Shown piece after piece: positions 4,092 through 57,730 of a stretch of DNA of 64,000 bases. Under the pieces are notes generated by a model. That model was given only the letters and a program-made list of their open reading frames with translations, was not told the DNA's origin and made no database searches. Source of the DNA: Thermosyntropha sp. (GTDB lineage: Bacteria > Bacillota > Syntrophomonadia > Syntrophomonadales > Syntrophomonadaceae); the NCBI RefSeq assembly GCF_017656155.1, contig NZ_JACDOH010000011.1:1-64000 (forward strand), in the 5' to 3' direction. A program made the translations under genes and the position numbers. Within the stretch, counting starts at the first letter, position 1; each line of letters begins with the position of its first letter.

Positions 4092-5322
4092 CTTCCTCAA
4101 CCTTTCTCAAAATAGAATTAACCGGCACGACAAAATCAGTTTCAAAAAAGACTATTTGTTTAGCATGTCTGGCTCTTTCAATATTTTCCATATTTTCATC
4201 ATAAAGCGCATTCAGCTTTATAGAATATACTTTCCCATCCGGAAGCAATAACTCTAAATTATCCCCACATCCAAAATTTCCCCTTTGCTCAACTTTCACC
4301 AGATTATTTTCCTTATCATAGCCTACAACTATACCACAAAATGATGCCCGATTTTCTACCACCGTTTTATTAATATCCTGAAGCAAAGGAGATTCTCCTT
4401 CTATAAAACCGTTAGTAAACGGGCGGGTCGCTGTTTTACATAGCTCTTTCATCCACTCTTCAAGTTCTGCCTGGTCATATGCGGTTCCCGTTTCAAGATA
4501 CCTTTCGATAGCCTTCTTATAAACTGAGGCGACACTTGCTATATAAAGCGGACTCTTCATCCTGCCTTCTACCTTAAACGCATCTATCCCAATATCAATA
4601 AGCCTGGGAATATATTCCAAGAGACACAAATCACGTGAATTTAATATATATGTCCCTCTCTCATCTTCTTCAATGGGAAAATACTGTCCAGGCCTCTTTT
4701 CTTCCTCTAAAACATATTTATAACGGCAGGGATGGGCACACTCACCCCTGTTAGCACTTCTTCCTGTCATATAATAAGACAAAAGGCATCTGCCCGAATA
4801 TGAAACACACATGGCTCCATGGACAAAAATCTCGACTTCCACTTCTGCTTTATTTTTTATCTCCTCTATTTCTCTTAAATTAAGCTCTCTTGCCAAAACG
4901 ATCCGCTTCGCTCCTAATTCTTTATATAAAAGTGCAGACTCATAATTGGTAACATTAGCCTGAGTACTTATAGTTTTAGGAACAGAAGGCGCATACTTGT
5001 TGGCTATTCTCAATACCCCGAGATCAGAAATTATCATACCATCTACTTTAAGTTCAGCCAATTTTTCAAGATAAGCAGGCAACTCTTTGAGATCATCATT
5101 GTGAGCTAAGATATTTACCGTAACATAAACTTTTTTATTGTGAAAATGGGCAAAATCCAAACCTTCTTTAATTTCCGGCATGGCAAAATTCCCGGCATAA
5201 GCCCTTAAGCTGAAATTTTTGCCGCCTATATATATCGCATCTGCTCCAAAAATTACGGCAGTCTTTAATTTTTCCAGATCTCCAGCCGGAAGAACCAGTT
5301 CCGGTTTTTTCACTTTTAACAC
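4084..5322 (-). CDS. U32 family protein (collagenase-like peptidase / tRNA hydroxylation TrhP-like)
   Basis: Cytosolic protein of about 412 residues with a U32 TIM-barrel domain and a C-terminal beta domain (from about residue 330). The signature EIFVHGAMCVSYSGRCLLS is present with the following RGECAHPCRY, giving the cysteines thought to hold an iron-sulfur cluster. B. subtilis YrrN/YrrO and E. coli TrhP of this family are required for 5-hydroxyuridine in tRNA; direct protease activity is doubtful for most members. Placement after mltG matches the yrrN/yrrO locus. The open frame runs upstream into mltG (to 5421). GTG codons at 5322 or 5313 after AAGAGG are the likely starts because the protein then begins LKVKKPELVLPAGD. 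Confidence 0.88.
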   Translation of the reverse strand: MLKVKKPELVLPAGDLEKLKTAVIFGADAIYIGGKNFSLRAYAGNFAMPEIKEGLDFAHFHNKKVYVTVNILAHNDDLKELPAYLEKLAELKVDGMIISDLGVLRIANKYAPSVPKTISTQANVTNYESALLYKELGAKRIVLARELNLREIEEIKNKAEVEVEIFVHGAMCVSYSGRCLLSYYMTGRSANRGECAHPCRYKYVLEEEKRPGQYFPIEEDERGTYILNSRDLCLLEYIPRLIDIGIDAFKVEGRMKSPLYIASVASVYKKAIERYLETGTAYDQAELEEWMKELCKTATRPFTNGFIEGESPLLQDINKTVVENRASFCGIVVGYDKENNLVKVEQRGNFGCGDNLELLLPDGKVYSIKLNALYDENMENIERARHAKQIVFFETDFVVPVNSILRKVEEDD

Positions 5323-5344
5323 CAACCTCTTAACTATAATGCTT

Positions 5345-6385
5345 TCATGGTTTCTGATACCGCTTAATCGCCTGCAAATGCTCCTCATGGGTTTTTGAAA
5401 AATAGTGGCTGCCATCACCACGCGCTACATAATAAAGATAATCATGCTTTTCCGGATTCAAAGCCGCTCTTATAGCCTCTTTCCCGGGACAGGCAATAGG
5501 CCCGATCGGTAGCCCGCTTATTTTATAGGTATTGTATGGAGAGTCGATTTTTAAATCTTTGCGAGTCACCACTTCTTTATGCTTTCCTAAGGCATACAAA
5601 ACAGTAGCATCTACCTGCAAAGGCATACCTTTTTTCAGTCTATTGGCTATAACTCCAGAAATTCTTTTCCTTTCTTCCGGAATAGCTGCTTCCCTTTCAA
5701 TCATAGAAGCTATGGTAATTATTTCATATATACTGTGGTTTTCCAGCTCGGAAGCAAAATTCTCCCTGAAAACCTTATCAAAATTTGCAAGCATCAAATC
5801 AACAATTTTTTCCGCAGTTACATTTTCATCTACCTGATATGTATCAGGAAAAAGAAACCCTTCCAAAGGATTCTTCACTCCCTGCGGAACATCTTTTAAG
5901 AATTCATAATTATACTCTTTTCTTACTGCTTCATCCCAGTCTTCTTTTCTGCATATTCCCTTTTCAGCCAAAAGCTGACCAATCTGTTCCACCGTATAAC
6001 CTTCCGGAACGGTAAAGGAAATAAATACTGTCTTACCTTCTGCAATATCCTGAACAATTTCCTTCAAGGATTGACTGCGGCTAAACCTAAAATGACCTGC
6101 CTGAAGCTTTGCATCATATCCTGTCTTTTTGCAGTAATAAAGAAAAGCTTTTTCACTGCGTATAAGATTATTATCAGATAAAATCTTTGCTATATCACGC
6201 GCTGTACTGTTTTCAGGTATATAAATATCTATATATCTCTTGTCATTCAGATCAACAGGCATATACTGAAGTTTAAGCCAATAAAAGTAGCCTGAAATAC
6301 ACCCTGTCAACAAAACAGCTAAAATTAAAATCAAAGTTCCCTTTTTAGGACTTACTTGTTTCATCACTTTTGAAATTTCACTCAT
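5345..6385 (-). CDS. mltG: Endolytic transglycosylase MltG (YceG-like)
   Basis: Membrane-anchored lytic transglycosylase that cleaves nascent glycan strands during peptidoglycan synthesis. An N-terminal transmembrane helix (LILILAVLLTGCISGYFYWL) precedes a LysM-like region and the YceG domain. Conserved blocks include GFLFPDTYQ, ASMIEREA (containing the catalytic Glu) and PYNTYKISGLPIGPI. Length of about 346 residues is normal. The ATG at 6385 follows AGGTGAGAG; an in-frame GTG lies 9 bases upstream. It sits between the vanW-like and U32 genes, as in the Bacillus yrrL locus with vanW added. Confidence 0.95.
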   Translation of the reverse strand: MSEISKVMKQVSPKKGTLILILAVLLTGCISGYFYWLKLQYMPVDLNDKRYIDIYIPENSTARDIAKILSDNNLIRSEKAFLYYCKKTGYDAKLQAGHFRFSRSQSLKEIVQDIAEGKTVFISFTVPEGYTVEQIGQLLAEKGICRKEDWDEAVRKEYNYEFLKDVPQGVKNPLEGFLFPDTYQVDENVTAEKIVDLMLANFDKVFRENFASELENHSIYEIITIASMIEREAAIPEERKRISGVIANRLKKGMPLQVDATVLYALGKHKEVVTRKDLKIDSPYNTYKISGLPIGPIACPGKEAIRAALNPEKHDYLYYVARGDGSHYFSKTHEEHLQAIKRYQKP

Positions 6386-41000: not shown

Positions 41001-42770
41001 TCAGGCCATATTTTTTCCTGCTAAAATAGCCTTTTTTTCATGTCTGACTATATTTATCAAATTATCCCGGTTGAGATCATTTACAAAATACAATATCCCT
41101 TCTGCTTTTTCAGCCACTTTCTCTAAAAAATACCGGTTAGACTCTACCCCTATGCATACAAATCTTATATTCTTATCTGCTATCATAGCAGCAGCCCTTA
41201 AAGTATCTGCCTTGGCATCCATAGTCCACAAAGGCACATTAGGCAAACCATCAGTGATTAATACTAAAAGCGGGTTTTTAATCCGGCTTTCTTCTATAAG
41301 TTTCAAAGCCTTTATTATCCCATGCGCCATAGGGGTTAAACCAGCCGGATTAATCGTAAATAATCCTTTCTTAAGTTCACTTTCCTTGCGGGTAAACGGC
41401 ACCACTACCCGACTGCTTTTTTCCTGGAAAGCAACCACCGCAACCTTATCTTTTCCGGTCAAAAGCAAATGCTGAGCCAAATAACAGGCAGCCTGCCTTT
41501 TTTCTCCCGCCATACTCCCTGAACTGTCTAAAAGCAAACAGACATTTACGGGAATATAATTTCTTTTCTGATAATAATGCAAATCCTCTTTTTTTATGGT
41601 AAAATGTTCGTCGCCCCTTAAAAACCCGTTCTTTTTAGCCTGCACGATACTTTCCGGTACTGCCAAATCCCCTGACCAGTTTCTGATATTATTTATCGTT
41701 TTGTTTCGGTTAATATATTCAATACGATGACTTTTAAAGTCAGCACTGCCCAGCCTGATAAATCTTCCGCTGCCTCCAGAAGGCATTTTGCGGATGCTCC
41801 TCCTAATTTCCGTTTCCAGTTCACATTTGTGGTTAATAACATATTCTTTAAGCTCCTTCCCTTTACGGGTTAAAATCTTCCCCGCCGGAGTATCTTTTAA
41901 AATCCCCAACTCCTCCAGCTGTTCCACATAATGCTCTACATCGCCCCATTTTTTCTTTTGCTGGTCCATTCCTTTGCGTTTAAAAATATTAGTAGAATAT
42001 GATTCCATAAATTCTTCAATTTCCTCTACTCCGCCAAACTTCTCCGCCAGCTTTACTATAAGCTGATTCACATTTTCTTTTTCCGGTAAAGCAGAAGCAT
42101 TCTGCCCCTTCAATTTTTTCCAGGGCAGTTTTATATATCCGGAAAAACTGTCTTCTTTCTGCTTTTGGGTTCCATGAACTATGTTTCTTACCTTGGCCAG
42201 CTTAACCTCAGAGGCAATTATTACCTCTTCTACTGCTTCGGCTATGACATATACCAAATAATACTCATCCCGGTTAAATCTAGCCAGAATATGGACATGG
42301 TCATAACCTTCCTCTCCGACCATAAAAGGACTTATATTTTCCTGCAGGAGATCATACAAAAGCCCTTTTCCCTGATTAGTTACGATATATATCTTATGGT
42401 TATAAGCCGATACCATCCTGTAAAGCTCATCTTCCGCATATTTAAGCTGGGGATCCCGGGTCAAAAAGTAATTACATATGCCGTGGTAAATTGCCCGTGC
42501 AACATCATCAGGATAAATTTCCCCCGGCTTATGGTATACATCAATATGAACTACCTGGTCTTCATCTACAAAATCCAAATAAGTTTTTCCAGCATCCCGG
42601 TTAGTCAAAATTTTTATCTGTCCTTTAATCTTTTTTTCCGGCATACGGGCATGAGCCTTGCGGCTTACAACTACGCTTTCTCCCAGCCTTACTCCCTGAT
42701 TTTGTCCCAGATAAAGGCTTAAATAATTGCCGACAGAAGTAGCATTATCTATATGGACATTCTCCGGCAT
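41001..42770 (-). CDS. VWA-domain protein, magnesium-chelatase ChlD-like
   Basis: Cytosolic protein of 589 residues. The N-terminal half is unfamiliar (an alpha/beta region followed by charged helices) and the C-terminal 190 residues form a von Willebrand A domain. MIDAS residues are visible as DSSGSMAG, TPMAHG and ITDGLPN. It resembles the D subunit that works with a ChlI-type AAA+ ATPase, encoded 13 bases upstream. No porphyrin biosynthesis genes are near, so metal chelation is doubtful; a MoxR-VWA-like chaperone role is the alternative. Confidence 0.82.
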   Translation of the reverse strand: MPENVHIDNATSVGNYLSLYLGQNQGVRLGESVVVSRKAHARMPEKKIKGQIKILTNRDAGKTYLDFVDEDQVVHIDVYHKPGEIYPDDVARAIYHGICNYFLTRDPQLKYAEDELYRMVSAYNHKIYIVTNQGKGLLYDLLQENISPFMVGEEGYDHVHILARFNRDEYYLVYVIAEAVEEVIIASEVKLAKVRNIVHGTQKQKEDSFSGYIKLPWKKLKGQNASALPEKENVNQLIVKLAEKFGGVEEIEEFMESYSTNIFKRKGMDQQKKKWGDVEHYVEQLEELGILKDTPAGKILTRKGKELKEYVINHKCELETEIRRSIRKMPSGGSGRFIRLGSADFKSHRIEYINRNKTINNIRNWSGDLAVPESIVQAKKNGFLRGDEHFTIKKEDLHYYQKRNYIPVNVCLLLDSSGSMAGEKRQAACYLAQHLLLTGKDKVAVVAFQEKSSRVVVPFTRKESELKKGLFTINPAGLTPMAHGIIKALKLIEESRIKNPLLVLITDGLPNVPLWTMDAKADTLRAAAMIADKNIRFVCIGVESNRYFLEKVAEKAEGILYFVNDLNRDNLINIVRHEKKAILAGKNMA

Positions 42771-42783
42771 TCAAAGCCCCCCT

Positions 42784-44004
42784 TTAAAAATCGCTCGGGG
42801 TTAAGGTCTTTTCCGTATTTATAAGCTCACTTCGCTCCATATCCTTCAAAGGCCTGGCTGTATGCTGAAAGTAATCATTATCAATTTCTTCCGCCTTTTT
42901 CCGGTTTTTACGCCCTTTAAAATTCAGAATCCCATCTCGGACCCCCCGGGCATCAACCTCATTCATAAGCCTTACCAGGGCATCTCCATCAATCCGATGC
43001 TTGAGAACCAAAGGTATCATATAAGTAACATCATTTATAACCGGATTATTGCGGCCTTTTATAATACTGTGCAGAACAGCCCCCTGCTGCATAGCTTCAA
43101 TTGCGCGTATGCTTTCCAGATTATGTTTAATGTAAAGCCGGGCAATAAAATTGCGCAAAAAATCCGGTAAGTCGGTTTTCATGTATATTTCCGCCCACTT
43201 TATTATATTTTGCCTATATTTGTCATTCTGCACCGCATCAGAGTCAGCAACTTTTTGTTCTTTATTATTCTTTTTAAATCTTCCGCAATGTGAATTTTCC
43301 CTTAAAATATTAGCCAGTATATCAGCCGAATTCGGACGCCCCATATAGCAAACCATATCAAAGCGGTCAGAAAGCTGCCTTCTTATCTCTTCCAACGGTC
43401 CCGGTTCTTCATCAGGATTAGAAGCTGCCCATACGGAAACGCTTACCGGAATCTCCACAATCGGAAGCCCGGCTTCTTCTATCTGAATATGGCCCGGCTT
43501 ATTTCCCATAACATCCAGAAGTATATCCGTTATCTCCGGCGAAGTATCGGCAAGGCGGTTTATCTCATCAACAAAAATTATCCCGCGATGAGCCTGGGGA
43601 ATAAGTCCCGGTAAAAGCCGGGCTTCTGGATGAGCAGGATCAGTAAGCTGGCTTAAATCAATGCTTCCGGCAACCGTACCAACCTTGGCGGAATGAGAAA
43701 TTTCCAGAAAAGGCATAGGTATTTCTTCCGTCCCGATCGCAGCGATTTCTTCTTCTGACATATTTTTATGCTGGGGACAATGTGGATCTTGGGGATCACA
43801 ATTATAAATACATCCTTTAATACGAGTGATGTTGGGCAGTATATCCCTGGCTGCACGCATTATAGTGGTTTTCCCCGTTCCCCTGAGTCCCTCAGCATGA
43901 ATATGCAAGGGCACCCCGGCATAAGTTGAAACTATCGACATTAAAACCATGTCGAACAAAGCTTCATTCCCTTCATATCTTTCCAACCGGTAAAATGGTA
44001 TCAT
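42784..44004 (-). CDS. AAA+ ATPase, magnesium-chelatase ChlI-like
   Basis: AAA+ ATPase of 406 residues with Walker A GLRGTGKTTIM, Walker B GIIFVDEINRL and SVWAASNPDEE. The insertion CIYNCDPQDPHCPQH is typical of ChlI/BchI. C-terminal lid helices follow. It pairs with the VWA gene downstream. ATG start, GGGGGGAA upstream. Biological target unknown. The 430-base upstream region contains a 10 bp inverted repeat at 44037-44080 and may be the regulatory region. Confidence 0.86.
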   Translation of the reverse strand: MIPFYRLERYEGNEALFDMVLMSIVSTYAGVPLHIHAEGLRGTGKTTIMRAARDILPNITRIKGCIYNCDPQDPHCPQHKNMSEEEIAAIGTEEIPMPFLEISHSAKVGTVAGSIDLSQLTDPAHPEARLLPGLIPQAHRGIIFVDEINRLADTSPEITDILLDVMGNKPGHIQIEEAGLPIVEIPVSVSVWAASNPDEEPGPLEEIRRQLSDRFDMVCYMGRPNSADILANILRENSHCGRFKKNNKEQKVADSDAVQNDKYRQNIIKWAEIYMKTDLPDFLRNFIARLYIKHNLESIRAIEAMQQGAVLHSIIKGRNNPVINDVTYMIPLVLKHRIDGDALVRLMNEVDARGVRDGILNFKGRKNRKKAEEIDNDYFQHTARPLKDMERSELINTEKTLTPSDF

Positions 44005-47147: not shown

Positions 47148-47576
47148 TTACCCCTCTTTCTGTTTTTTTATCCCTGGGGGAACTATATAAACTTCATCTC
47201 CCCTGAAATCAAAATAGTCGCTTAATTTCCAGTATACACCTCGGCTCAAGCGGGTATCCCCTTCCCACTTGAAACTTATATAAGGGACATCTCCTTTAAA
47301 GCTGATTTTCATTTCTTTATCCAAAATCATCTCCTGCAGATCATGAAAAATCAGTTTAAACCTACCATTCTCATCTTCGGTTATTCCTACCGCATAAAAA
47401 GGAACATCTTCCACTATTAGCGGATTTCTTTCCTGTCCCATTTCTATATAGTAATTTCCCTCTTCATCTCTCTTTATATGGCTGGCTAAAATATTTAATA
47501 TATTGCGTCTGAACATCTCTGCTTGCCCAAAATACCACTTGCCATCCTTACGAATAGTTATAGTCTGTAATTCCAT
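47148..47576 (-). CDS. DUF1285-like protein
   Basis: Cytosolic protein of 142 residues: IRKDGKWYFGQAEMFRRNILNILASHI, then YYIEMGQERNPLIVEDVPFYAVGI. This pattern matches DUF1285 (Ile-x-Asp-Gly-x-Trp start and VED.PF..V block). Function of the family is unknown. It precedes degV by 5 bases, so a shared transcript is likely. Confidence 0.65.
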   Translation of the reverse strand: MELQTITIRKDGKWYFGQAEMFRRNILNILASHIKRDEEGNYYIEMGQERNPLIVEDVPFYAVGITEDENGRFKLIFHDLQEMILDKEMKISFKGDVPYISFKWEGDTRLSRGVYWKLSDYFDFRGDEVYIVPPGIKKQKEG

Positions 47577-47683: not shown

Positions 47684-50362
47684 TTAAATACTATAGGCCT
47701 TTTTCATGCGCAGCGAATTTCGATAAATTTCTTCTATATCTTCATCTGTTATTTCTTTTCCCCCCATAACCAGCCCGGCCAGTTTAAAACCGTGCTTTTC
47801 GCCTAAATGGCGTAGATAAGCTACAGTATCCAAAGAAAGTTTAGTTCCGATGCTGTAATCATTATAGTCACCTTCTAAAGCAAGTAAAACCGTTTCAGAG
47901 AGGCAAGCCAAACTTACTCCGTCCCGGTATCCAAAATTAGGACCGAATACTACCGGTTCAGGATATTCCACAAGTCCGCCCTCTAAAATCAAAACATCAT
48001 TTCTTTCTTCTAAAACTTCGGGAGCAACATCAGCCGGCCTTGCCACATCACATACCACCGCCCCCGGCTTTAAGTGGTGTGAATAAACAAGATATTCCGG
48101 AGAATTGCTGGCCGCTACAATCAGATCGCATTTCGGCAAAGTTGATTCTGCATCCAAACTGGTTGTCACAGGCAAACTGACTCCCAGATAAACACACAAT
48201 TCATTCAACACTTCTATATTTACTTCTTCATTCTCTATTCTCGTTTTTAACCATTTTGCCCTTTCATCGCCTTTTCTTTCTAAAATCTCCATTATTTCAT
48301 CAAGCCATGCGCTGAGTCCTTTTATCTCTCCTCTGTTTCTTCTTTCCCAGGCATAACTGAACATATCTTCTATAAGAGAGTTAAGCCGGTTTTTGCTGCT
48401 GGTAGGATGCTGTGGATTGCCCAGCAAAGTTATATATCTCATTTCTTCTGACATAATAAGGGCACAAGCCCTGCCTATCGAACCGGTTGCTCCTACCACT
48501 GCTCCATGTGCTCTAGAAACATCAATATGCATCTTTTTAGCCCCTGAAAATAACGCTTCTAAAGCCATTATGGTAGTAAAGCTATTCCCACTGGTAATTG
48601 CCACTCCCCGGCCCTGAACTGACCTTCCTCCCCGGGTTACTACCGAAGATAAAGCTCCTAATCCTACAATTTTAGCACCTAAATCCCTTCCTAAATCAAC
48701 CGCCTTTTGCACCGCCTTAACCGTAACCTCACGCGGCAAGCTCATAATCTGTCTTCCGCCATAAGGTATTCCAATAAGCCACCCTTCTGCAATTTTTCCG
48801 GTTTTTGATCTTATAGCGGGCATATAACAAACTATCCCAGGTTCATCATCAAAAGTCTGCCAATCCATAAACTTCATAATTTCATCCCGGCTGAATGTCT
48901 TAAATGAAGGATTATTGATTACCACATCTTCCGGCCCGGGATAATGGATTACAAAAGCAAATTTCTCTGTCGGCTTTTCTCCTTCCTTAAGTGCCGAACC
49001 CCTTATCTTTCGGCTTACCGAACGATAATCATCTATTACTCCAGGCTTTGAATAGTCTCCCAACAAGTAACGATAAAGCTTAGCATAATCTTTTTTGCTC
49101 AATATTTCGCAGACAATCTCCAAAGCTTCCATAACATAATCTATTTCCTCATAAGTTATAGTTAAAGGCGGTTCTAGCCTCAAAGTCATAGGATTATTCA
49201 AAAACGGCGCCAATCTTATATTATATACATTAAGAAGAAAACCGGCCAAAAGTGCGGTAAACCCCTTAACATCAGTAAGATATGCCATATCAAAAGAACC
49301 GCAATCGTTTAACTCATAAAACTCTATACCTACCATAAGCCCTTTTCCGCGCACTTCTTTTATAATATCAGAATAGCGGTTTCCCAAATCATGAGCTCTT
49401 TTCAGGAGATAATCGCCTTTTTCCTTTACTTCGCGAATAAATTTTCGGTCATCTTTTATAAGCTCATCTAATACCGCACTTCCCACCGCACAGGTAAGGT
49501 TGTTATTGGCAAAAGTAGAACTGTGCAGAGAGCCAAAATCGTCATTATATACCCTAGGCGAGCTCAAGCATACTCCTAAAGGAACTAAACCTCCTCCCAA
49601 AGCTTTAGCCAAAAGCATAACATCAGGTTCAATACCTTCCTCTTCACAAGCAAAAAGGCTACCGGTGCGTCCCAATCCGGTTTGAATCTCATCTACAATA
49701 AAAACTATACCATATTTGCGGCAAAGCTCCTGTGCCTTTTTCAAATACCCCGGCCGGGCAGGAACCATTCCTCCTTCTCCCTGAACAGGCTCTACAATAA
49801 AACCGGCTATATCACCTTCATGCTTGATAAACATCTCTTCTAAAGCTTCAATATCGTTATATGGCACATGCATAAAGCCTGGGATCGGCGCTCCGAAAGG
49901 TGTCTGATAAACTTCCCGTCCGGTAGCTGAAAGGGCTCCTAAAGTCTTACCGTGAAAGCTCTTTATAGTAGAAACTATTATCTTTTTGCCGGTAGCCGAA
50001 CGTGCCAGCTTTATAGCTGCTTCTACCGCTTCTGCTCCACTCTGGCAAAAGGTCGAGTAGGTCAAATCTCCAGGGGACAATTCCATAAGCTTTTTAGCCA
50101 GCATTAATGCTTCTCCAGGCAAAGAAGGCTGGGTAAGGCTTGGTATTTTATTTTTTCTCACCCTTTCCAACGCTTCCCATACAAAATCAGGATTATATCC
50201 AAAAGGCACAGCTCCATACTGGGCAATAAAATCTAAATATTTTCTGCCTTCTCTATCAGCAAGATAATTGCCTTCTCCATGAACATAATCTTTATCCAAC
50301 TTAAAAGCCTTAAGTATTTTAGCTAAAGTTGGATTAAGCAGTTCATCATGTTTAACCGTCAT
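47684..50362 (-). CDS. Class III aminotransferase fused to acyl-ACP reductase (AAR)-like domain
   Basis: Predicted cytosolic bifunctional enzyme of 892 residues. Residues 1-425 are a fold-type I class III PLP aminotransferase (TYSTFCQSGAEAVEAAIKLA, DEIQTGLGRTG, PLP Lys253 in LLAKALGGG). Residues about 465-860 resemble long-chain acyl-ACP reductase: LGAKIVGLGALSSVVTRGG, the nucleotide-binding GAVVGATGSIGRA (620-632), KPGAVVCDVARPADV (Cys771) and LACLSETVLLALEGDYNDYSIG. AAR reduces acyl-ACP to aldehyde with NADPH, so the pair could turn an acyl thioester into an amine (inference). Start: ATG at 50362 (or 50365) after AAGGAGG; the frame is open 45 bases further. Promoter and operator at 50382-50443; own terminator. 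Confidence 0.85.
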   Translation of the reverse strand: MTVKHDELLNPTLAKILKAFKLDKDYVHGEGNYLADREGRKYLDFIAQYGAVPFGYNPDFVWEALERVRKNKIPSLTQPSLPGEALMLAKKLMELSPGDLTYSTFCQSGAEAVEAAIKLARSATGKKIIVSTIKSFHGKTLGALSATGREVYQTPFGAPIPGFMHVPYNDIEALEEMFIKHEGDIAGFIVEPVQGEGGMVPARPGYLKKAQELCRKYGIVFIVDEIQTGLGRTGSLFACEEEGIEPDVMLLAKALGGGLVPLGVCLSSPRVYNDDFGSLHSSTFANNNLTCAVGSAVLDELIKDDRKFIREVKEKGDYLLKRAHDLGNRYSDIIKEVRGKGLMVGIEFYELNDCGSFDMAYLTDVKGFTALLAGFLLNVYNIRLAPFLNNPMTLRLEPPLTITYEEIDYVMEALEIVCEILSKKDYAKLYRYLLGDYSKPGVIDDYRSVSRKIRGSALKEGEKPTEKFAFVIHYPGPEDVVINNPSFKTFSRDEIMKFMDWQTFDDEPGIVCYMPAIRSKTGKIAEGWLIGIPYGGRQIMSLPREVTVKAVQKAVDLGRDLGAKIVGLGALSSVVTRGGRSVQGRGVAITSGNSFTTIMALEALFSGAKKMHIDVSRAHGAVVGATGSIGRACALIMSEEMRYITLLGNPQHPTSSKNRLNSLIEDMFSYAWERRNRGEIKGLSAWLDEIMEILERKGDERAKWLKTRIENEEVNIEVLNELCVYLGVSLPVTTSLDAESTLPKCDLIVAASNSPEYLVYSHHLKPGAVVCDVARPADVAPEVLEERNDVLILEGGLVEYPEPVVFGPNFGYRDGVSLACLSETVLLALEGDYNDYSIGTKLSLDTVAYLRHLGEKHGFKLAGLVMGGKEITDEDIEEIYRNSLRMKKAYSI

Positions 50363-50756: not shown

Positions 50757-51593
50757 TTACCACTCGGGAGGAAGCTGTTTTAGCTGGGCTAAAGTAAATA
50801 CCGGCCCATCAAGACAGATATATTCACTTCCTATATTACACCGTCCGCATTTACCAATACCGCATTTCATTCGCATCTCTAAGGTAGTTATAACCTGGTC
50901 ATCGGTATAGCCCATTTTTTCAAGAACTTCCAAAACAAATTTTATCATTACTGGCGGACCGCAGGTTACAGCAATAGTATTCTCAGGACTTATATTTAAT
51001 TCTTCCAGATACGAAGGAACAAAACCTACATGTCCATCCCAGCCTTCTTCAGGCTTATCAATGGTTACATAAACTTCAGTCTCTTTCTCTTTCGGCCATT
51101 TGTCAAAAAGCTCATCCTTAAAACATAAATCAGCATAACTGCGGCTGCCGTAGATTATAGTTATTTTCCCATAGTCCTCACGATGTTTAAAGCAATACTT
51201 AATAAATGAGCGCAGAGGTGCAAGCCCTATTCCTCCCCCTATAAAAAGCATGTTTTTGCCTTTACATGCTTCTACCGGAAAACCATTGCCATAAGGCCCT
51301 CTGACTCCCAGCTTCTGTCCTACTTCAATACGGTGCAGCTCATCAGTCATCAAACCTACTCTTTTTATGGCAAACTGAAGATGATCATTGTCTTCCTGCC
51401 AGGAAACTGAAAACATACCTTCACCTACCGGCACCAGCGAAACCATCGCCAATTGTCCCGGCATAACATCAAAAGGCACCCCGCCACCTATTTTACTTAC
51501 CTTGAAAGTCTTCACATCGGGAGTTTCATCAATTATATCAATTACTTCAACAATTTCCGGAACTAAAGGATTTTCACAATTACACTTATGCAC
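50757..51593 (-). CDS. floxA: FloxA: FAD/NAD(P)-binding oxidoreductase subunit
   Basis: Cytosolic flavoprotein of 278 residues in the ferredoxin-reductase/PyrK/AsrB class. It has an FAD-binding barrel (RGPYGNGFPVE), an NAD(P) domain (MLFIGGGIGLAPLRSFIKY) and a C-terminal cysteine cluster C-GIGK-C-GR-C-NIGSEYI-C for a [2Fe-2S] centre. In HdrABC-FloxABCD complexes FloxA is the NADH entry point. It is last in the hdrCBA-floxDCBA operon, 3 bases after floxB. Closest alternatives (sulfite reductase B, hydrogenase gamma) are excluded by the operon. Confidence 0.88.
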   Translation of the reverse strand: MHKCNCENPLVPEIVEVIDIIDETPDVKTFKVSKIGGGVPFDVMPGQLAMVSLVPVGEGMFSVSWQEDNDHLQFAIKRVGLMTDELHRIEVGQKLGVRGPYGNGFPVEACKGKNMLFIGGGIGLAPLRSFIKYCFKHREDYGKITIIYGSRSYADLCFKDELFDKWPKEKETEVYVTIDKPEEGWDGHVGFVPSYLEELNISPENTIAVTCGPPVMIKFVLEVLEKMGYTDDQVITTLEMRMKCGIGKCGRCNIGSEYICLDGPVFTLAQLKQLPPEW

Positions 51594-51596
51594 ATT

Positions 51597-52604
51597 CTAT
51601 GCCCCCTTAATCTCCTCAATAATTTTTACAATACTTACCCCCGATGGACAAACAAAGACACATCTGCCGCATCCGGTGCAAAGCGGCTTACCGTAGCGCT
51701 CATAAAAAAACTCAAGTTTATGCAGAAAACGGTTTCTAAACCTTTCTTTAGCTGTTTCACGCGGATTATGCCCTCCTGCCATCTGGGTATATTCCCTATA
51801 CATGCAGGAATCCCAGCAGCGGAAACGATAACCTTCATCACCCCAGGCCTTAACTTGAATATCAAAGCAATGGCAGGTCGGACAAATATAAGTGCATATA
51901 CCACATGTCTGACACGGCTCAGAAAGTCTATCCCACATGGGATGCTCAAATAAACCTTTAAGTTTCTCAGCTACTCCATCATAGTCTACCTTAATCACAA
52001 ACTTCTTCAATTCAGGAAGCTGAACTTCTTTATCTTCCAGCAAATCACTTATCAGCCTGGTAATATTTTCGCCTTTTTCAGTCTTTACTTCCCATACATA
52101 ACCTTCATCACTATATTCGCGTAAAACTATATCAGCTAATTCTGGCTCAACAGGATTTACACCCATCGATTCACAAAAACAGTTTTTTCCCGGAGTATAA
52201 CAGGCATTAGCGATAAAAACCGTATTTTCCCGTCTTTTTTTGTAAAAAGCATCTTCATAACCACAGGTCAAGAAAACCTCATCTAAATATTCAATAGCCT
52301 TTAAATCACACGCCCTTATACCAAAAATAATACGCGGATTTTCATCCTCATAGACTTTATCAATTATTACATCCTGTCCCTCCTGCTTAAAGCTGTACAT
52401 CTTTTCTGTTTGCGGAAAAACTACTTCTTTAGGAGGTCTAAGAACATTTAAAGCCTCCAAAACCAGTTCATCAAAGTCCGGGTTATAAGTTTTGTAATCA
52501 AAAAATCCCGATTGGGCACCGCGCATCATAGGTACATAAACTTCAGCCGACTCAGATAACTTATCCAAAATTTTTTCCAACCTGCCTTTTTTAAAAACCT
52601 TCAT
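51597..52604 (-). CDS. floxB: FloxB: iron-sulfur subunit (AsrA-like)
   Basis: Iron-sulfur protein of 335 residues. The C-terminal half holds two ferredoxin-type motifs, CQTCGICTYICPTCHCFD and CTGCGRCVFVCPSGV; extra cysteines (CYTPGKNCFC) lie near residue 120. Similar to anaerobic sulfite reductase subunit A and hydrogenase beta-type proteins, but position between floxC and floxA identifies it. ATG at 52604 with AAGGAG 9 bases upstream. It relays electrons between the FloxA flavin and the Hdr module (family knowledge). Confidence 0.87.
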   Translation of the reverse strand: MKVFKKGRLEKILDKLSESAEVYVPMMRGAQSGFFDYKTYNPDFDELVLEALNVLRPPKEVVFPQTEKMYSFKQEGQDVIIDKVYEDENPRIIFGIRACDLKAIEYLDEVFLTCGYEDAFYKKRRENTVFIANACYTPGKNCFCESMGVNPVEPELADIVLREYSDEGYVWEVKTEKGENITRLISDLLEDKEVQLPELKKFVIKVDYDGVAEKLKGLFEHPMWDRLSEPCQTCGICTYICPTCHCFDIQVKAWGDEGYRFRCWDSCMYREYTQMAGGHNPRETAKERFRNRFLHKLEFFYERYGKPLCTGCGRCVFVCPSGVSIVKIIEEIKGA

Positions 52605-52616
52605 CCCGATCACTCC

Positions 52617-53525
52617 TTATATAAAATCATCCGGATCATCTTCTTTGTACATGCTGAGCGGCGGTTTAGCACCCTCTTCATATACAATTCCTGCTTCATA
52701 AGGCCCGAAAAATTCAGCTACATCTTTTATAAGCTTGCGGTTAATAAGCATAAGCGGAATATCAACCGGACATACCCTCTCACATTCTCCGCATTCTATG
52801 CACCTTCCCGCCATATGGGAAGCTCGCACAACGTGATACATCATATTATCACTTACGTTAGTTTCCCTGCCTACCCACTGCGGCTTGGTTTCATCAAAGA
52901 TACAGGTGCGGCAGTTACAGGCAACACAAACCTGTCTGCATGCATAACAGCGAATACAGGTAGATAAAACCTTTTCAAAAAAAGCATATCTTTCATCATA
53001 AGATTTAGCCTCTAATTCCTTTATTTCTTTAAATCTTTCCCCTTTAAGCAAAGGGGGTTTTTCTTCGCCAATAAGTTCATCATATATAACCGGATTAGGC
53101 TGAATGCAGTGGCGGCATTTTTCAGCCATTTCAGAATCAGCCGGCTTCTTTACCGCAAAACCAGAATCCTCATACATCCGCTTAAGAGGATCCTTCATGC
53201 CAGGGCAGGGGACACCCACTATATACAAACGATCCCTTTTAAACTGGTTATCCTGCAAAAGGCGAACAATACCTCTAGAATCACAGCCCTTCACTACGAT
53301 GCCTATTTTTTCATGACCATCCCGAAATTTTAAGAGATAGTTGCTTAAATTATGAATAGAATACTCATCAAAAACCAGATTTTTTGCCTCTTCAACATTA
53401 TGGGCAAAAAACGGTTTAGTATTATATTCAAATTCACCCTTCTGCCATCCAATAAAGATATCTACCTGACCGCTTTCAAGGAGCCGGGCTGCAGTTTCTT
53501 GAATCTTGGCAGTTATTTCCTTCAT
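52617..53525 (-). CDS. floxC: FloxC: iron-sulfur subunit
   Basis: Cytosolic iron-sulfur protein of 302 residues with many cysteines: KCRHCIQPNP (about residue 140), CIRCYACRQVCVACNCRTC (about 190-208) and CIECGECERVCPVDIPL (about 240-255). ATG overlaps the floxD stop (ATGA). It is the electron-wire subunit of the Flox module; resembles the FrhB/AsrA-like proteins. Followed by floxB after 12 bases. Confidence 0.86.
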   Translation of the reverse strand: MKEITAKIQETAARLLESGQVDIFIGWQKGEFEYNTKPFFAHNVEEAKNLVFDEYSIHNLSNYLLKFRDGHEKIGIVVKGCDSRGIVRLLQDNQFKRDRLYIVGVPCPGMKDPLKRMYEDSGFAVKKPADSEMAEKCRHCIQPNPVIYDELIGEEKPPLLKGERFKEIKELEAKSYDERYAFFEKVLSTCIRCYACRQVCVACNCRTCIFDETKPQWVGRETNVSDNMMYHVVRASHMAGRCIECGECERVCPVDIPLMLINRKLIKDVAEFFGPYEAGIVYEEGAKPPLSMYKEDDPDDFI

Positions 53526-53953
53526 CTTACATCCCTCAGCTTTCTGTTAGGTCCTAATTTTAAAACATCATTAACCAGCTTTTCCATGGTATCCCTAAAT
53601 TTAATCCCTTCTGCTCCCGAAATCCACGCTGTCTGATATCTTTCCGGTTCTATCCCGAAATACTCCATGAGGCTTTTCATCACCGTATGCCGGCGACGAT
53701 TATAATAATTGCCACTACCATAGTGGCATTCGCCCGGGTGTCATCCGGAGAGAAGCACTCCATCTGCTCCCCGGTTAAAAGCTCTTAAAACCAGCATAGG
53801 ATCCATGCGTCCTGAACATGGTGTTCTTATAATCCGGATCTGCGCCGGATATTCCAGGTGATTAAGCCCAGCCAGGTCGGCCGCCGCATAGGTGCACCAG
53901 TTGCAGGCAAAAACTATTATTTTCGGTTCCCAGCTATTATTATCTATAGACAC
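53522..53953 (-). CDS. floxD: FloxD (MvhD family) selenoprotein, TGA-encoded Sec71
   Basis: Iron-sulfur protein of 143 residues that joins the Flox module to HdrA, like MvhD/VhuD. An in-frame TGA at 53743-53741 encodes selenocysteine: LLSG-Sec-HPGECHYGSG aligns with the SGCHPGDCHY of MvhD, and the frame stays open to TGA at 53524-53522 with family sequence (FGIEPERYQTAWISGAEG). Other ligands are Cys17, Cys20 (CNWC) and Cys46. A perfect 8 bp hairpin TGCCACTA-TGG-TAGTGGCA starts 13 bases after the TGA, a bacterial SECIS with GG in the loop. GTG start, overlapping hdrA's end by 10 bases. Automatic callers would truncate it at residue 70. Confidence 0.93.
53710..53728 (-). promoter_or_regulatory. 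SECIS element of floxD
   Basis: Minus-strand RNA hairpin with perfect 8 bp stem and UGG loop inside the coding sequence, loop 21-23 bases after the UGA. This matches the spacing and loop G pair recognised by bacterial SelB. No SelB/SelC gene is in the window. Confidence 0.82.
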
Positions 53954-55929
53954 AGCGCATCCACCTCCGCTACTAATTGCTCATCAGTAAACCCTTTCAA
54001 ATTAAGTGCAGCCGTTCGACATGCAGGTACACAGGCTCCACATCCCTGACACAGGCTTCCGTTCACCTGGGCTACCTGTCTTTTTACTGGTCCGTGATGT
54101 CCTCTTTCAGTTATCTCTACCAGAGAAATAGCCTTATACGGACAAATCGGAACACAGAATCCGCAGCCCGAACACTTGCTTATATCGACTTCTGAAACCA
54201 TAGGTTCAGTAGCCAGCATATCATGGGCAAAGAGTCCGCATACCTTTGCTGCCGCACCGCTGGCCTGGGCTACTGTATCCGGTATATCTTTAGGACCCTG
54301 ACAGGCACCTGCCAAATATACCCCGGCAGCAAAAGTTTCTACAGGTTGCAATTTAGGATGAGCTTCCTGATAAAAACCGTCTTTATCTACTGAAAAACCT
54401 ATTATCTTGGCCAATTCCTGAGCTCCTTCAGAAGGAACCATAGCAGTAGCCAAAACTACCAAATCAACTTCAACTTCAATAGGACGTCCTAAAAGCGAGT
54501 CTTCTGCCTTTAAGACCAAGCTTTCACCACGCTGATAAATCTTGCTTACCCTTCCGCGTATATATTTAGCTCCTGCATTTAGCGAACGCTGATAAAATTC
54601 TTCATAATTTTTACCAGCCGTCCGCACATCCATATAGAAAACATAAGCTTCACTGTCCGGAATCTTGTCCTTTACCTGATAAGCATGTTTAGCAGTATAC
54701 ATACAGCAGGCACGCGAACAATATCCTTTACCTTTTGTATCATCCCTGGAGCCTACACACTTGATGAAAGCTACCCGCTTTGGTTCCTTACCATCCGAAG
54801 GACGTTTTATCTTACCTCCGGTCGGTCCTCCTGCGCTGGACAAACGTTCAAACTGCAGGCTTGTTATTACATCTGGATACTTGCCATAGCCATATTCTCC
54901 GTAAACTTCTTCCCATTTGAAAAGATCATATCCGGTAGCCATTACAATAGCTCCAACATCAACAGTAATATATTCTTCTTTATCATCAAATCGGATAGCT
55001 TTAGTAGGACAAATCTTTTCACATACTCCGCATTTATCTTCCTTAAGTTTCCGACAGTGCTCTGCATCAATAAAAACCTTGCCCGGCACTGCCTGAGGAT
55101 AAACCTTGCGAATGGCAGTAGTTAAACCTAAACCCAATTCAAAGGGATCAGGAACTTTTTTAGTCGGGCATTTTTCTATACAGGTGCCACATCCGGTGCA
55201 TAAATCCCAATCTACATACTTAGGCTTCTTTTTAATCGTTACCTTAAAATTGCCGATATACCCTGCAACATCGGTTACTTCCGCATAAGTAATAATTTCA
55301 ATATTAGGGTGCTGTGCCACAGCAACCATCTTCGGAGTAGCTATTCAGGCTGCACAGTCCATAGTCGGGAAAGTCTTGTCAAGCTGAGTCATTTTACCGC
55401 CGATAGTAGCTTCCTTTTCCACCAAAACAACCGGATAACCTGCCTCGGCTATGTCTAAAGCAGCCTGCATTCCGGCAATTCCTCCACCTATTACCAAGGC
55501 TTTTTTAGTTATGGGTATATGGGAAATATTAAGAGGTTTATTGCGCAAAACCTTGCTTACCGCCATTCTTACCAAGTCTTTAGCTTTTTTGGTGGCTTCT
55601 TTGCGATCGTGATGAACCCAGGAATCCTGTTCCCGAATATTAACCATTTCAAAAAGGTATCCATTTATTCCGCCCTGTTCTACCGCTTTGCGAAAGGTCT
55701 TTTCATGCATACGCGGGGAACAGGATGCAACCACTACCTGCTCCAGGCCATGTTCCTTTATAGCCTTCTTGACCATTTCCTGCCCGGGGTCAGAACACAT
55801 ATACTTATAAGTAGTTGAAAAGACTACCCCTGGCAAATCTGCCGCATATTTGGCAACCTCTTCAGTATCAACTACTGAGGCAATGTTAGTCCCACAGTCG
55901 CAAACAAAAACCCCAACCCTTTTTTTCAT
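53944..55929 (-). CDS. hdrA: HdrA selenoprotein, TGA-encoded Sec195
   Basis: Electron-bifurcating flavoprotein subunit of heterodisulfide reductase-type complexes, 661 residues. FAD motif [16 protein letters not shown] (about 148-163); four-cysteine clusters at [44 protein letters not shown] and [16 protein letters not shown]. In-frame TGA at 55347-55345 gives TFPTMDCAA-Sec-IATPKMV, the place of the second cysteine in the usual TFPT.DC..C..TPKMV motif. The frame continues without break. SECIS-like hairpin at 55310-55324. ATG after AAGGAGGGAAAAGGAG. Routine calling would split it into 194-aa and 461-aa pieces. Confidence 0.94.
55310..55324 (-). promoter_or_regulatory. SECIS element of hdrA
   Basis: Minus-strand RNA TGCTGT-GGC-ACAGCA: perfect 6 bp stem with GGC loop, loop 27-29 bases after the start of the UGA codon, within the range used by bacterial SelB. 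Confidence 0.75.
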
Positions 55930-55963
55930 TCTCCTTTTCCCTCCTTAAGACAAGCTATCGCTT

Positions 55964-57157
55964 CTAATTCGATGATTTCTCCCGCTTTTTCATCTCTCCG
56001 ACTATTAAAGCTTCTGCTACCTTGATGGCTTTTTCTTTATCCTGAGCCATTACCTCAGCCAGCTTAACCCGTTTCTTTTCATCATTTTTTATTACATCTG
56101 CCAGAATATTAACTTTCTCTCCATCTTCTATCAGTTTAGATACTACTTTTTCCGGATTTTTCTCCAATCCTTTCAGGATAGCATCGATTTTTTTCTGTAT
56201 GTCTTCTGAATTATCAGATGGTTTTTCCCCTTCAGCTCTTTTAGTTTTAGCAGCAGGTTTAGCTTTGGCCTCTTCTTCTTCCATAGCCTTTGCTTTAGCT
56301 GGTAATCCTTTAAGATAGGAAACAGCTTCTACAAAATGTTTATGGATGCCTACCGTTTTGGGGTCATCTCCACAGGCAACCGCAACAAGCTCAGTCACAT
56401 AATAAACCGGTATATTAAACCCTTGGCTAAACCTTTTTTCCACCTGCCCCTGCCTCATATCCAGATTCATCATGCACAAAGGACAGGCAGTAACTATACA
56501 TTCTGCTCCCGCCTCTTTAACATTCTGCAAAATTTCATATATCATTTTCCCGCCTATCTCCGGACGGGAAGTAGCCAAAGCAGCCCCACAACATTCCGTT
56601 TTATAAGCCCAATCGACCGTTTCAGCTCCTAATGCTTTTATTATTTCATCCATACTCTGTGGATTTTCCGGATCATCAAACCCGGTATGGCTTGACGGAC
56701 GCACCAGCAAACATCCATAATAACAGGCAGCCTTCATTCCTTTTAAAGAATTGGTAACTTTAGCTTTGAGGTTATCTATTCCCAGCCTTTTAATCCATTC
56801 CAAAACCGAAATCGTATTGTTGCTTGCACTGTAAGACATATCGATAATATATTCTATCCTGGCTTTTAATCCTGCATCTTCCCTCACCGCATGTTCAGTT
56901 GCTTTAAACCGGTTATAACAGGCAGCACATGGAGCTAAAACATCGAGTCCTTCTTTTTCAGCCAAAGCCAAGTTCCTTGCCGGCAAAGCCAAGGACAAAA
57001 GCTTGTCCGTATTATGTCCGGCAGTAGCTCCACAGCAGTTCCAGTCATCTATCTCCTTCAGTTCAACCCCTAATATTCGGGCAACCCTTTCGGTAGAAAG
57101 TCCATATTCAACTGCACTACCATCCAATGAACATCCCGGATAATATGCGAGCTTCAT
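55964..57157 (-). CDS. hdrB: HdrB with C-terminal extension
   Basis: Catalytic subunit of the Hdr module, 397 residues. Two CCG cysteine-rich domains (SLDGSAVEYGL, DDWNCCGATAGH, CAACYNRF; then KTECCGAALATSRPE and TACPLCMMNLDMRQ) bind the noncubane [4Fe-4S] clusters that reduce the disulfide substrate. Residues about 286-397 are an extra Lys/Glu/Ala-rich helical tail not found in standard HdrB (about 290 aa). ATG start; 3 bases after hdrC. The substrate in bacteria lacking coenzyme B/M is probably a DsrC-like or other thiol carrier (family inference). Confidence 0.9.
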   Translation of the reverse strand: MKLAYYPGCSLDGSAVEYGLSTERVARILGVELKEIDDWNCCGATAGHNTDKLLSLALPARNLALAEKEGLDVLAPCAACYNRFKATEHAVREDAGLKARIEYIIDMSYSASNNTISVLEWIKRLGIDNLKAKVTNSLKGMKAACYYGCLLVRPSSHTGFDDPENPQSMDEIIKALGAETVDWAYKTECCGAALATSRPEIGGKMIYEILQNVKEAGAECIVTACPLCMMNLDMRQGQVEKRFSQGFNIPVYYVTELVAVACGDDPKTVGIHKHFVEAVSYLKGLPAKAKAMEEEEAKAKPAAKTKRAEGEKPSDNSEDIQKKIDAILKGLEKNPEKVVSKLIEDGEKVNILADVIKNDEKKRVKLAEVMAQDKEKAIKVAEALIVGEMKKREKSSN

Positions 57158-57160
57158 CTT

Positions 57161-57730
57161 TTATTCCCTCCCTGCCTCTAAAGCCCTGGCAAAAATTTTG
57201 GCCATTTCATCCCTTCCTTTAATCTTTTCTGGAAAAGGACTTGCTTTACCACGCTTCATCATGGGTAAACCGAGTTCAGCATCTTTAAAAAATTGCCGGG
57301 TAGAAAGGTTATGATAAAGTAAAATTCCAGCCTCATAAGACCGTCCATATTTCTTCACTGTATTTAAAAAGGCTTTATTAAATAAAGCTACCTTCTTATC
57401 TGCAACTTTTCCACGTCTTAAAGCTTCCCTGCGCAGTGTATCCATTAAAGATGCTATATCTACTCCTCGCGGGCACCGCTCCGAACAGGTCTCGCAAGTA
57501 GCACATATCCATATGCTCTCTGCACCTAAAGCCTCATCAATCAGTCCTAGCTGTAAAAGCCTTATTACCTGCCGGGGAGTGTAGTCCATTGCAAAGCTGA
57601 CCGGACAACCTGCAGAACACTTGCCGCACTGATAACAAAGATTAATATCAGTGCCTGCTTCCTTTTCCAGCTTTTCAATTAACCTGCGGTCATCTTCAGT
57701 AAGTGGGCCAATCCTCGTAACTGCTTCCAT
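57161..57730 (-). CDS. hdrC: HdrC iron-sulfur subunit
   Basis: Cytosolic [4Fe-4S] protein of 189 residues that passes electrons from HdrA to HdrB. Two motifs, NLCYQCGKCSAGCPVS (about 31-46) and WICATCETCSERCPRGVD (about 75-92), are in the normal spacing. ATG with AAGGAAGGAGAG upstream. It is the first gene of hdrCBA-floxDCBA; seven genes run with overlaps or gaps of at most 34 bases, strongly indicating one operon. Confidence 0.94.
   Translation of the reverse strand: MEAVTRIGPLTEDDRRLIEKLEKEAGTDINLCYQCGKCSAGCPVSFAMDYTPRQVIRLLQLGLIDEALGAESIWICATCETCSERCPRGVDIASLMDTLRREALRRGKVADKKVALFNKAFLNTVKKYGRSYEAGILLYHNLSTRQFFKDAELGLPMMKRGKASPFPEKIKGRDEMAKIFARALEAGRE

Follow-up and report, generated by a model that had tools for sequence, protein, structure and literature searches.

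A fused class III transaminase and acyl-ACP reductase-like protein is near-core in Syntrophomonadaceae and replaces two separate genes of related anaerobes

The window analyzed here, a stretch of 64,000 nucleotides of Thermosyntropha sp. DNA, encodes on its minus strand a protein of 892 residues whose reading frame starts with an ATG at position 50362 and ends with a stop codon at 47684–47686 (Table 1); the same open frame is readable from an upstream TTG, which would give 907 residues. Because the frame is long and uninterrupted, has 56 to 82% identity to proteins in other family members and gives a dN/dS of 0.12/2.88 against a genome of the same genus (with dS saturated), a chance open reading frame is excluded. 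Pfam recognizes one confident domain in the protein, PF00202, and finds only sub-threshold Rossmann matches in the C-terminal half. Residues ~515 to 879 align with PigE (4PPM), in its N-terminal half, and with cyanobacterial acyl-ACP reductase (AAR; 6JZQ, E 4.4e-12). The three AAR motifs quoted in an earlier note on this DNA, GLGALSSVV at residue 567, GATGSIG at 624 and ACLSETV around Cys820, lie where that note had placed them, as does Lys253, and domain searches, motifs and alignment confirm its proposal that a complete PLP aminotransferase and an AAR-like module are joined in one protein. An AlphaFold2 model of the full fusion, built from five sequences, had a pLDDT of 48.8 and was set aside.

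Table 1 Positions of the fusion, its parts and neighbor, and of genes in other loci mentioned in the text
Feature	Sequence	Coordinates	Strand	Basis
Fusion CDS, 892 aa: class III aminotransferase (N), acyl-ACP reductase-like (C)	window	47684..50362	-	
Class III PLP aminotransferase domain, aa 25-415	window	49118..50290	-	PF00202, E 2.9e-90; genome search
Lys253, PLP Schiff-base lysine (AKALGGG)	window	49604..49606	-	Invariant in fusion alignment and in standalone relatives
Acyl-ACP reductase-like domain, aa 465-892	window	47687..48970	-	phmmer to 4PPM/6JZQ; HMM boundaries
GATGSIG nucleotide-binding motif, aa 624-630	window	48473..48493	-	G624, G627 and G630 conserved
Mostly helical insertion in the Rossmann part, about aa 650-730	window	48173..48415	-	Alignment; motif spacing
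Cys820, predicted acyl-thioester nucleophile	window	47903..47905	-	Cys in 57/58 AAR domains, the exception being a diverged paralogue; S. elongatus AAR C294 in alignment to 6JZQ
DUF1285-family protein, 142 aa, directly downstream of fusion	window	47148..47576	-	PF06938, 29.9 bits (cutoff 29.3)
301-344 aa protein at AAR position	L113 (G000:C10)	5139-6041		
301-344 aa protein at AAR position	L114	6442-7344		
301-344 aa protein at AAR position	L115	6476-7507		
VPLPA-CTERM (exosortase substrate) gene	L024	8508-9242		Annotation
VPLPA-CTERM (exosortase substrate) gene	L025	12754-13464		Annotation
VPLPA-CTERM (exosortase substrate) gene	L118	11782-12471		C-terminal motif

Lys253, the three motif glycines and Cys820 are invariant in an alignment of 28 fusion sequences, and nearly all of 58 AAR domains keep Cys820 and the glycine motif together with E823 and D772. 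Loss of the AAR catalytic residues had been named in the earlier note as the result that would speak against its reading; in our alignment these residues are intact. The cysteine equivalent to C294 has also been mapped for Bacillota fusion relatives in a published study (PMC10829540).

That study described transaminase–AAR fusions of Bacillota in 2024, so the enzyme class and its presence in the phylum are already known. In it, TmFusion (Thermaerobacter marianensis Tmar_2123), a fusion of T. subterraneus and TfFusion (Thermincola ferriacetica Tfer_2018) were expressed and had transaminase activity on linear aldehydes; the Bacillota fusions take varied linear and aromatic aldehydes and accept amino donors that include L-Glu, L-Gln and L-Ala, transamination being the only activity measured and reductase activity being deduced from structure (PMC10829540). 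A literature search for a reductase assay of any Bacillota member found none. TfFusion and TmFusion have the same domain order, catalytic residues and clade as the query and likewise come from Bacillota hosts. In our set, L094, a 902-residue fusion with its cysteine at 824, matches TfFusion and is 53% identical to the query over 865 residues, and L108, with its cysteine at 909 counted from an internal Met, matches TmFusion and is 38% identical, in both cases across almost the whole protein. Unlike the query, however, these two proteins come from thermophiles and have other gene neighbors, with no adjoining DUF1285 gene, and the available part of the study makes no link between them and separate AAR and aminotransferase genes of Bacillota (PMC10829540).

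Beyond the phylum, PtTamH of Pseudoalteromonas tunicata, from the tambjamine YP1 pathway, resembles the query in having an N-terminal class III transaminase and a C-terminal AAR-like domain with GxxGxxG and a catalytic cysteine. Using NADH and L-Glu, it turns C12-ACP, with TamA as the carrier, into the C12 amine but refuses C12-CoA, and the C12 aldehyde becomes detectable when the amino donor is left out (PMC9594044). The gene for PtTamH is part of a pigment cluster that supplies a dedicated adenylation-ACP partner, TamA, whereas the query lies outside such a cluster. KecF (Pseudomonas koreensis, koreenceine) and PP_2782 (P. putida) similarly combine an N-terminal aminotransferase with a C-terminal COG5322/AAR-like domain (PMC6498172 and PMC10829540), although the predicted substrate of KecF is a polyketide-ACP and its gene belongs to a type II FAS/PKS cluster, unlike the context of the query. 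PigE of prodigiosin biosynthesis reduces a thioester and then transaminates (PMC8341465); both of its domains are homologous to those of the query, but their order is reversed, the protein belongs to a separate clade and the Rossmann insertion is missing. Cyanobacterial AAR (6JZQ/6JZU) is of the same AAR sequence family and shares GATGxIG and the catalytic cysteine with the query, yet it is a single domain that feeds alkane synthesis, has no transaminase and shows shorter motif spacing. With PF00202 and Lys253 at the N terminus, an AAR-like C terminus, the transaminase first and membership of the one clade, the query is a transaminase–AAR fusion; against the PigE family NF053554 of NCBIfam it scores 540.5 bits, below the cutoff of 850, with the domain order also reversed.

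On this basis the query is probably a TamH-type bifunctional enzyme that turns an acyl thioester into an amine in a conserved cellular role, and represents the fused form of a two-gene AAR and aminotransferase system. In the C-terminal domain, Cys820 would accept an acyl group delivered by acyl carrier protein or by CoA, and the resulting thioester would be reduced to the aldehyde by NAD(P)H that binds to GATGSIG. The N-terminal PLP domain would then use Lys253 to transfer an amino group to the aldehyde from an amino acid, probably glutamate, yielding a primary alkyl amine. Both precedent and the conserved residues lend good support to this chemistry. Catalysis of both steps by the query itself is inferred, as are the chain that it takes, the cofactor that it prefers and its end product; in relatives, transaminase activity (Thermincola and Thermaerobacter; PMC10829540) and the complete conversion of acyl-ACP to amine (PtTamH; PMC9594044) have been shown. 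The route from thioester through aldehyde to primary amine had been proposed in the earlier note and gains support from the intact residues, PtTamH and PigE; a hand-over of the aldehyde without its release, also suggested there, is a conjecture. The novelty implied in the note does not hold, since the Bacillota fusions had already been described (PMC10829540). Its remark that no such product was known from Clostridia still stands.

A more conventional function was weighed as well, in which the protein is an omega-amino-acid or polyamine transaminase that carries at its C terminus either an amino-acid dehydrogenase or a structural appendage, with no thioester reductase activity. The aminotransferase domain does resemble putrescine aminotransferase (324 bits), and the AAR domain by itself scores 64.2 bits against the long-chain acyl-ACP reductase family TIGR04058, far under the cutoff of 449.7, so that its substrate range may differ from that of cyanobacterial AAR. 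However, the query stays below both putrescine aminotransferase cutoffs (280.3 against 658.65 bits for TIGR03372, and 323.6 against 612 bits for PRK11522), and a structural relic would not require the cysteine, the glycine motif, E823 and D772 that nearly all AAR domains keep. Since PtTamH, with the same domain order, reduces acyl-ACP and some relatives carry ACP or AMP-binding domains, we consider this conventional function very unlikely.

In a maximum-likelihood tree of the 58 AAR domains, in which TamH and KecF are not included, all 38 transaminase-first fusions fall on one side of a branch with a support of 94/100. They come from Bacillota, including TfFusion and TmFusion, from Rhodobacterales and from Paraburkholderia, and their placement is consistent with a single origin of this domain order. 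PigE-type reversed fusions form another group (100/100), which includes one Bacillota protein, L109. The spacing between the nucleotide-binding motif and DVARP is 127 to 160 residues in the transaminase-first fusions measured and 83 to 86 residues in standalone AARs and the PigE-type L028; the Rossmann insertion marks the transaminase-first clade and is absent from standalone AARs and the PigE type. L109 (3081–5612, in G151) is an AAR-first fusion whose genome also has a standalone AAR, and within 10 kb it has no obvious pigment genes.

Two relatives of the query carry additional domains, namely an N-terminal phosphopantetheine domain (PF00550) in Paraburkholderia phymatum and a C-terminal AMP-binding domain in Leisingera. 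These carrier-protein and AMP-binding domains, which would be expected where an activated acid reaches the enzyme on a carrier, support an acyl-ACP or other acyl-thioester substrate and give no indication of chain length in Syntrophomonadaceae. The Leisingera protein, encoded on a plasmid of Leisingera sp. NJS204 (L026 7959–12146), comprises 1395 residues in the order transaminase, AAR, AMP-binding, and is possibly a self-contained acid-to-amine enzyme; an MMPL transporter gene adjoins it and pabB is near. On all three Rhodobacterales plasmids with a full-length fusion (39 to 41% identity), a gene for a VPLPA-CTERM protein adjoins the fusion (Table 1), and in Rhodovulum the exosortase gene XrtD is also close to it. 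A link of the amine to protein or polysaccharide anchoring is possible.

Syntrophomonadaceae are bacteria of the methane food chain. A full-length match to the fusion is present in 32 of 37 genomes of the family, the window's own included; the gene is split or truncated in two others (G026 and G036) and absent from three, which have completeness values of 76 to 81%. The full-length matches, together with the two split or truncated genes, make the fusion near-core in the family. The named relatives at 65 to 69% identity are metagenome-assembled genomes of Syntrophomonadaceae. Directly downstream of the fusion lies a DUF1285 gene in all 24 loci compared (the window and 23 others from the family and a sister family), on the same strand in 23 and mostly at a distance of 35 to 320 bp. 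For DUF1285, a crystal-structure paper suggests a nucleotide-type ligand and a signaling role (PMC2954208). In the neighborhood comparison called for in the earlier note, the DUF1285 gene is thus a conserved neighbor; nothing near the fusion identifies an acyl substrate or an amine-using enzyme.

Other neighbors, common to many loci but not all, are a Flox-Hdr cluster, DegV, a radical SAM protein, a LytTR regulator, an AAA protein and VWA proteins. In the window, a cluster of HdrABC and flavin oxidoreductase type lies directly upstream of the fusion (50757–57730, minus strand); as part of the fusion system it was rejected because the adjacency is frequent but not constant in the family. DegV, which has a fatty-acid-binding fold, adjoins the fusion in some loci only and was not retained as a functional partner. 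G056 and G210, which belong to a single other family, have an AAA ATPase gene directly upstream of the fusion together with two or three VWA genes in tandem (L056 1170–8340; L107), and the same AAA and VWA pair is found a few kilobases downstream of it in Syntrophomonadaceae (window 41001–44004).

These surroundings bear on a rival reading in which the enzyme, like TamH, KecF and PigE, works in an alkaloid or prodiginine-like route of secondary metabolism. Every characterized relative of known product serves such a pathway (PMC9594044, PMC6498172, PMC8341465), and prodiginine-type antiSMASH clusters occur in genomes of thermophilic relatives according to PMC10829540. In the window and 24 family loci, by contrast, no PKS, ketosynthase, ACP, bipyrrole or pigment gene is seen, the neighbors being HdrABC/oxidoreductase, DUF1285, DegV, radical SAM, AAA and VWA genes. 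Near-universal presence in the family and the replacement of separate genes are also unlike sporadic secondary metabolism, which leaves a secondary-metabolite role unlikely. The Syntrophomonadaceae fusion would rather serve a conserved cellular role, and its setting, as a near-core gene outside pigment and alkaloid clusters, is what is new.

In other families of the phylum the AAR-like domain is encoded by a standalone gene of about 360 to 375 codons within a housekeeping neighborhood (coaX, dusB, an HTH gene, a ~300-residue protein, AAR, greA, lysS), and a standalone aminotransferase of 460 to 530 residues, 44 to 47% identical to the fused domain, is encoded away from it. The distribution of these genes was compared across 249 genomes of the phylum with a completeness of at least 90%, in which AAR, free or fused, occurs in 158 and the fusion in 38. 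Among the 211 genomes without a fusion, 83 have both separate genes, 37 AAR only, 1 the aminotransferase only and 90 neither (Fisher p 6e-28), counts that were transcribed by hand from the search output with score cutoffs set after the data had been viewed, that include seven genomes whose AAR was classed as standalone although the output gave no frame length for it, and that are not phylogenetically independent because the genomes are related by descent. At the family level, counted by hand, both separate genes occur in 37 families and the aminotransferase alone in none. Some 20 of the 37 genomes with AAR only contain a related, mostly shorter aminotransferase of weaker score. Where the fusion is present, the standalone aminotransferase is missing from 36 of the 38 genomes and the standalone AAR from 37; the fusion takes the place of two genes that related anaerobes carry separately. 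In G115 the separate genes are adjacent on one strand, 41 bp apart, and another genome of that family, G147, carries the fusion; five further genomes (G050, G092, G123, G128 and G153) have both within 10 kb. In G236 and G113 the fusion directly follows the ~300-residue protein, the usual position of AAR, and in G233 it lies inside a coaX–lysS-type housekeeping cluster. The Syntrophomonadaceae fusion may accordingly be viewed, from gene content and position, as the joined form of a two-gene system spread through anaerobic Bacillota.

The ~300-residue protein next to AAR (L071 6880–7779 and homologues) belongs to a conserved family with the motifs VDGSGLKNTLERR and RSFGTNVMEA and has no match in Pfam, NCBIfam or the PDB. 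It adjoins the standalone AAR in 13 of the 14 loci read, usually with the HTH gene before it. As a third pathway component it was dropped because it occurs in 187 of the 249 genomes, some of them lacking AAR. In Syntrophomonadaceae and a Syntrophothermus-like genome, the AAR position between the ~300-residue protein and greA/lysS is held by a protein of 301 to 344 residues (Table 1) with no Pfam match, glycine motif, catalytic cysteine or AAR HMM match. A weak colinear hhalign profile match to AAR (E 0.0011, probability 21%) suggests that it is possibly a decayed AAR.

The hosts of the fusion are related to syntrophic fatty-acid oxidizers with large short-chain acyl-CoA pools. The same chemistry might be applied to a short or functionalized acyl thioester, such as one derived from butyrate oxidation or from a dicarboxylic acid, in which case the product would be a small amine or an amino acid instead of a fatty amine; this reading is one form of the preferred explanation and not mutually exclusive with it. 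The breadth of linear and aromatic aldehydes taken by the Bacillota relatives (PMC10829540) would suit such a substrate, but the nearest single-domain reductase of solved structure acts on long chains, and the occurrence of the system in dozens of other Bacillota families argues that it is not tied to butyrate oxidation. We regard a short-acyl substrate as possible but doubtful.

Enzymes of the fusion type have so far been studied in pigment and alkaloid pathways or as biocatalysts. The novelty that remains here is biological: a predicted amine-forming enzyme is near-core in syntrophic bacteria, and it is connected with a pair of genes that are widespread and mostly unlinked, of which Pfam recognizes the AAR only as shikimate-dehydrogenase-like and the partner resembles putrescine aminotransferase. 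Replacement of this pair by the fusion across anaerobes points to an amine yet to be recognized, and the near-core presence in syntrophic bacteria, with the fusion standing in for a gene pair across dozens of families, predicts that this amine is common; we found no description of such an amine of Syntrophomonadaceae or anaerobic Bacillota in the literature. The chances are about even that a large part of the anaerobic Bacillota makes an unrecognized primary amine, possibly an amino-lipid, by means of conserved AAR and class III aminotransferase, and that the fusion reveals two mostly unlinked genes to act together. If true, this would provide a function for a widespread AAR-like gene and its putrescine-aminotransferase-like partner.
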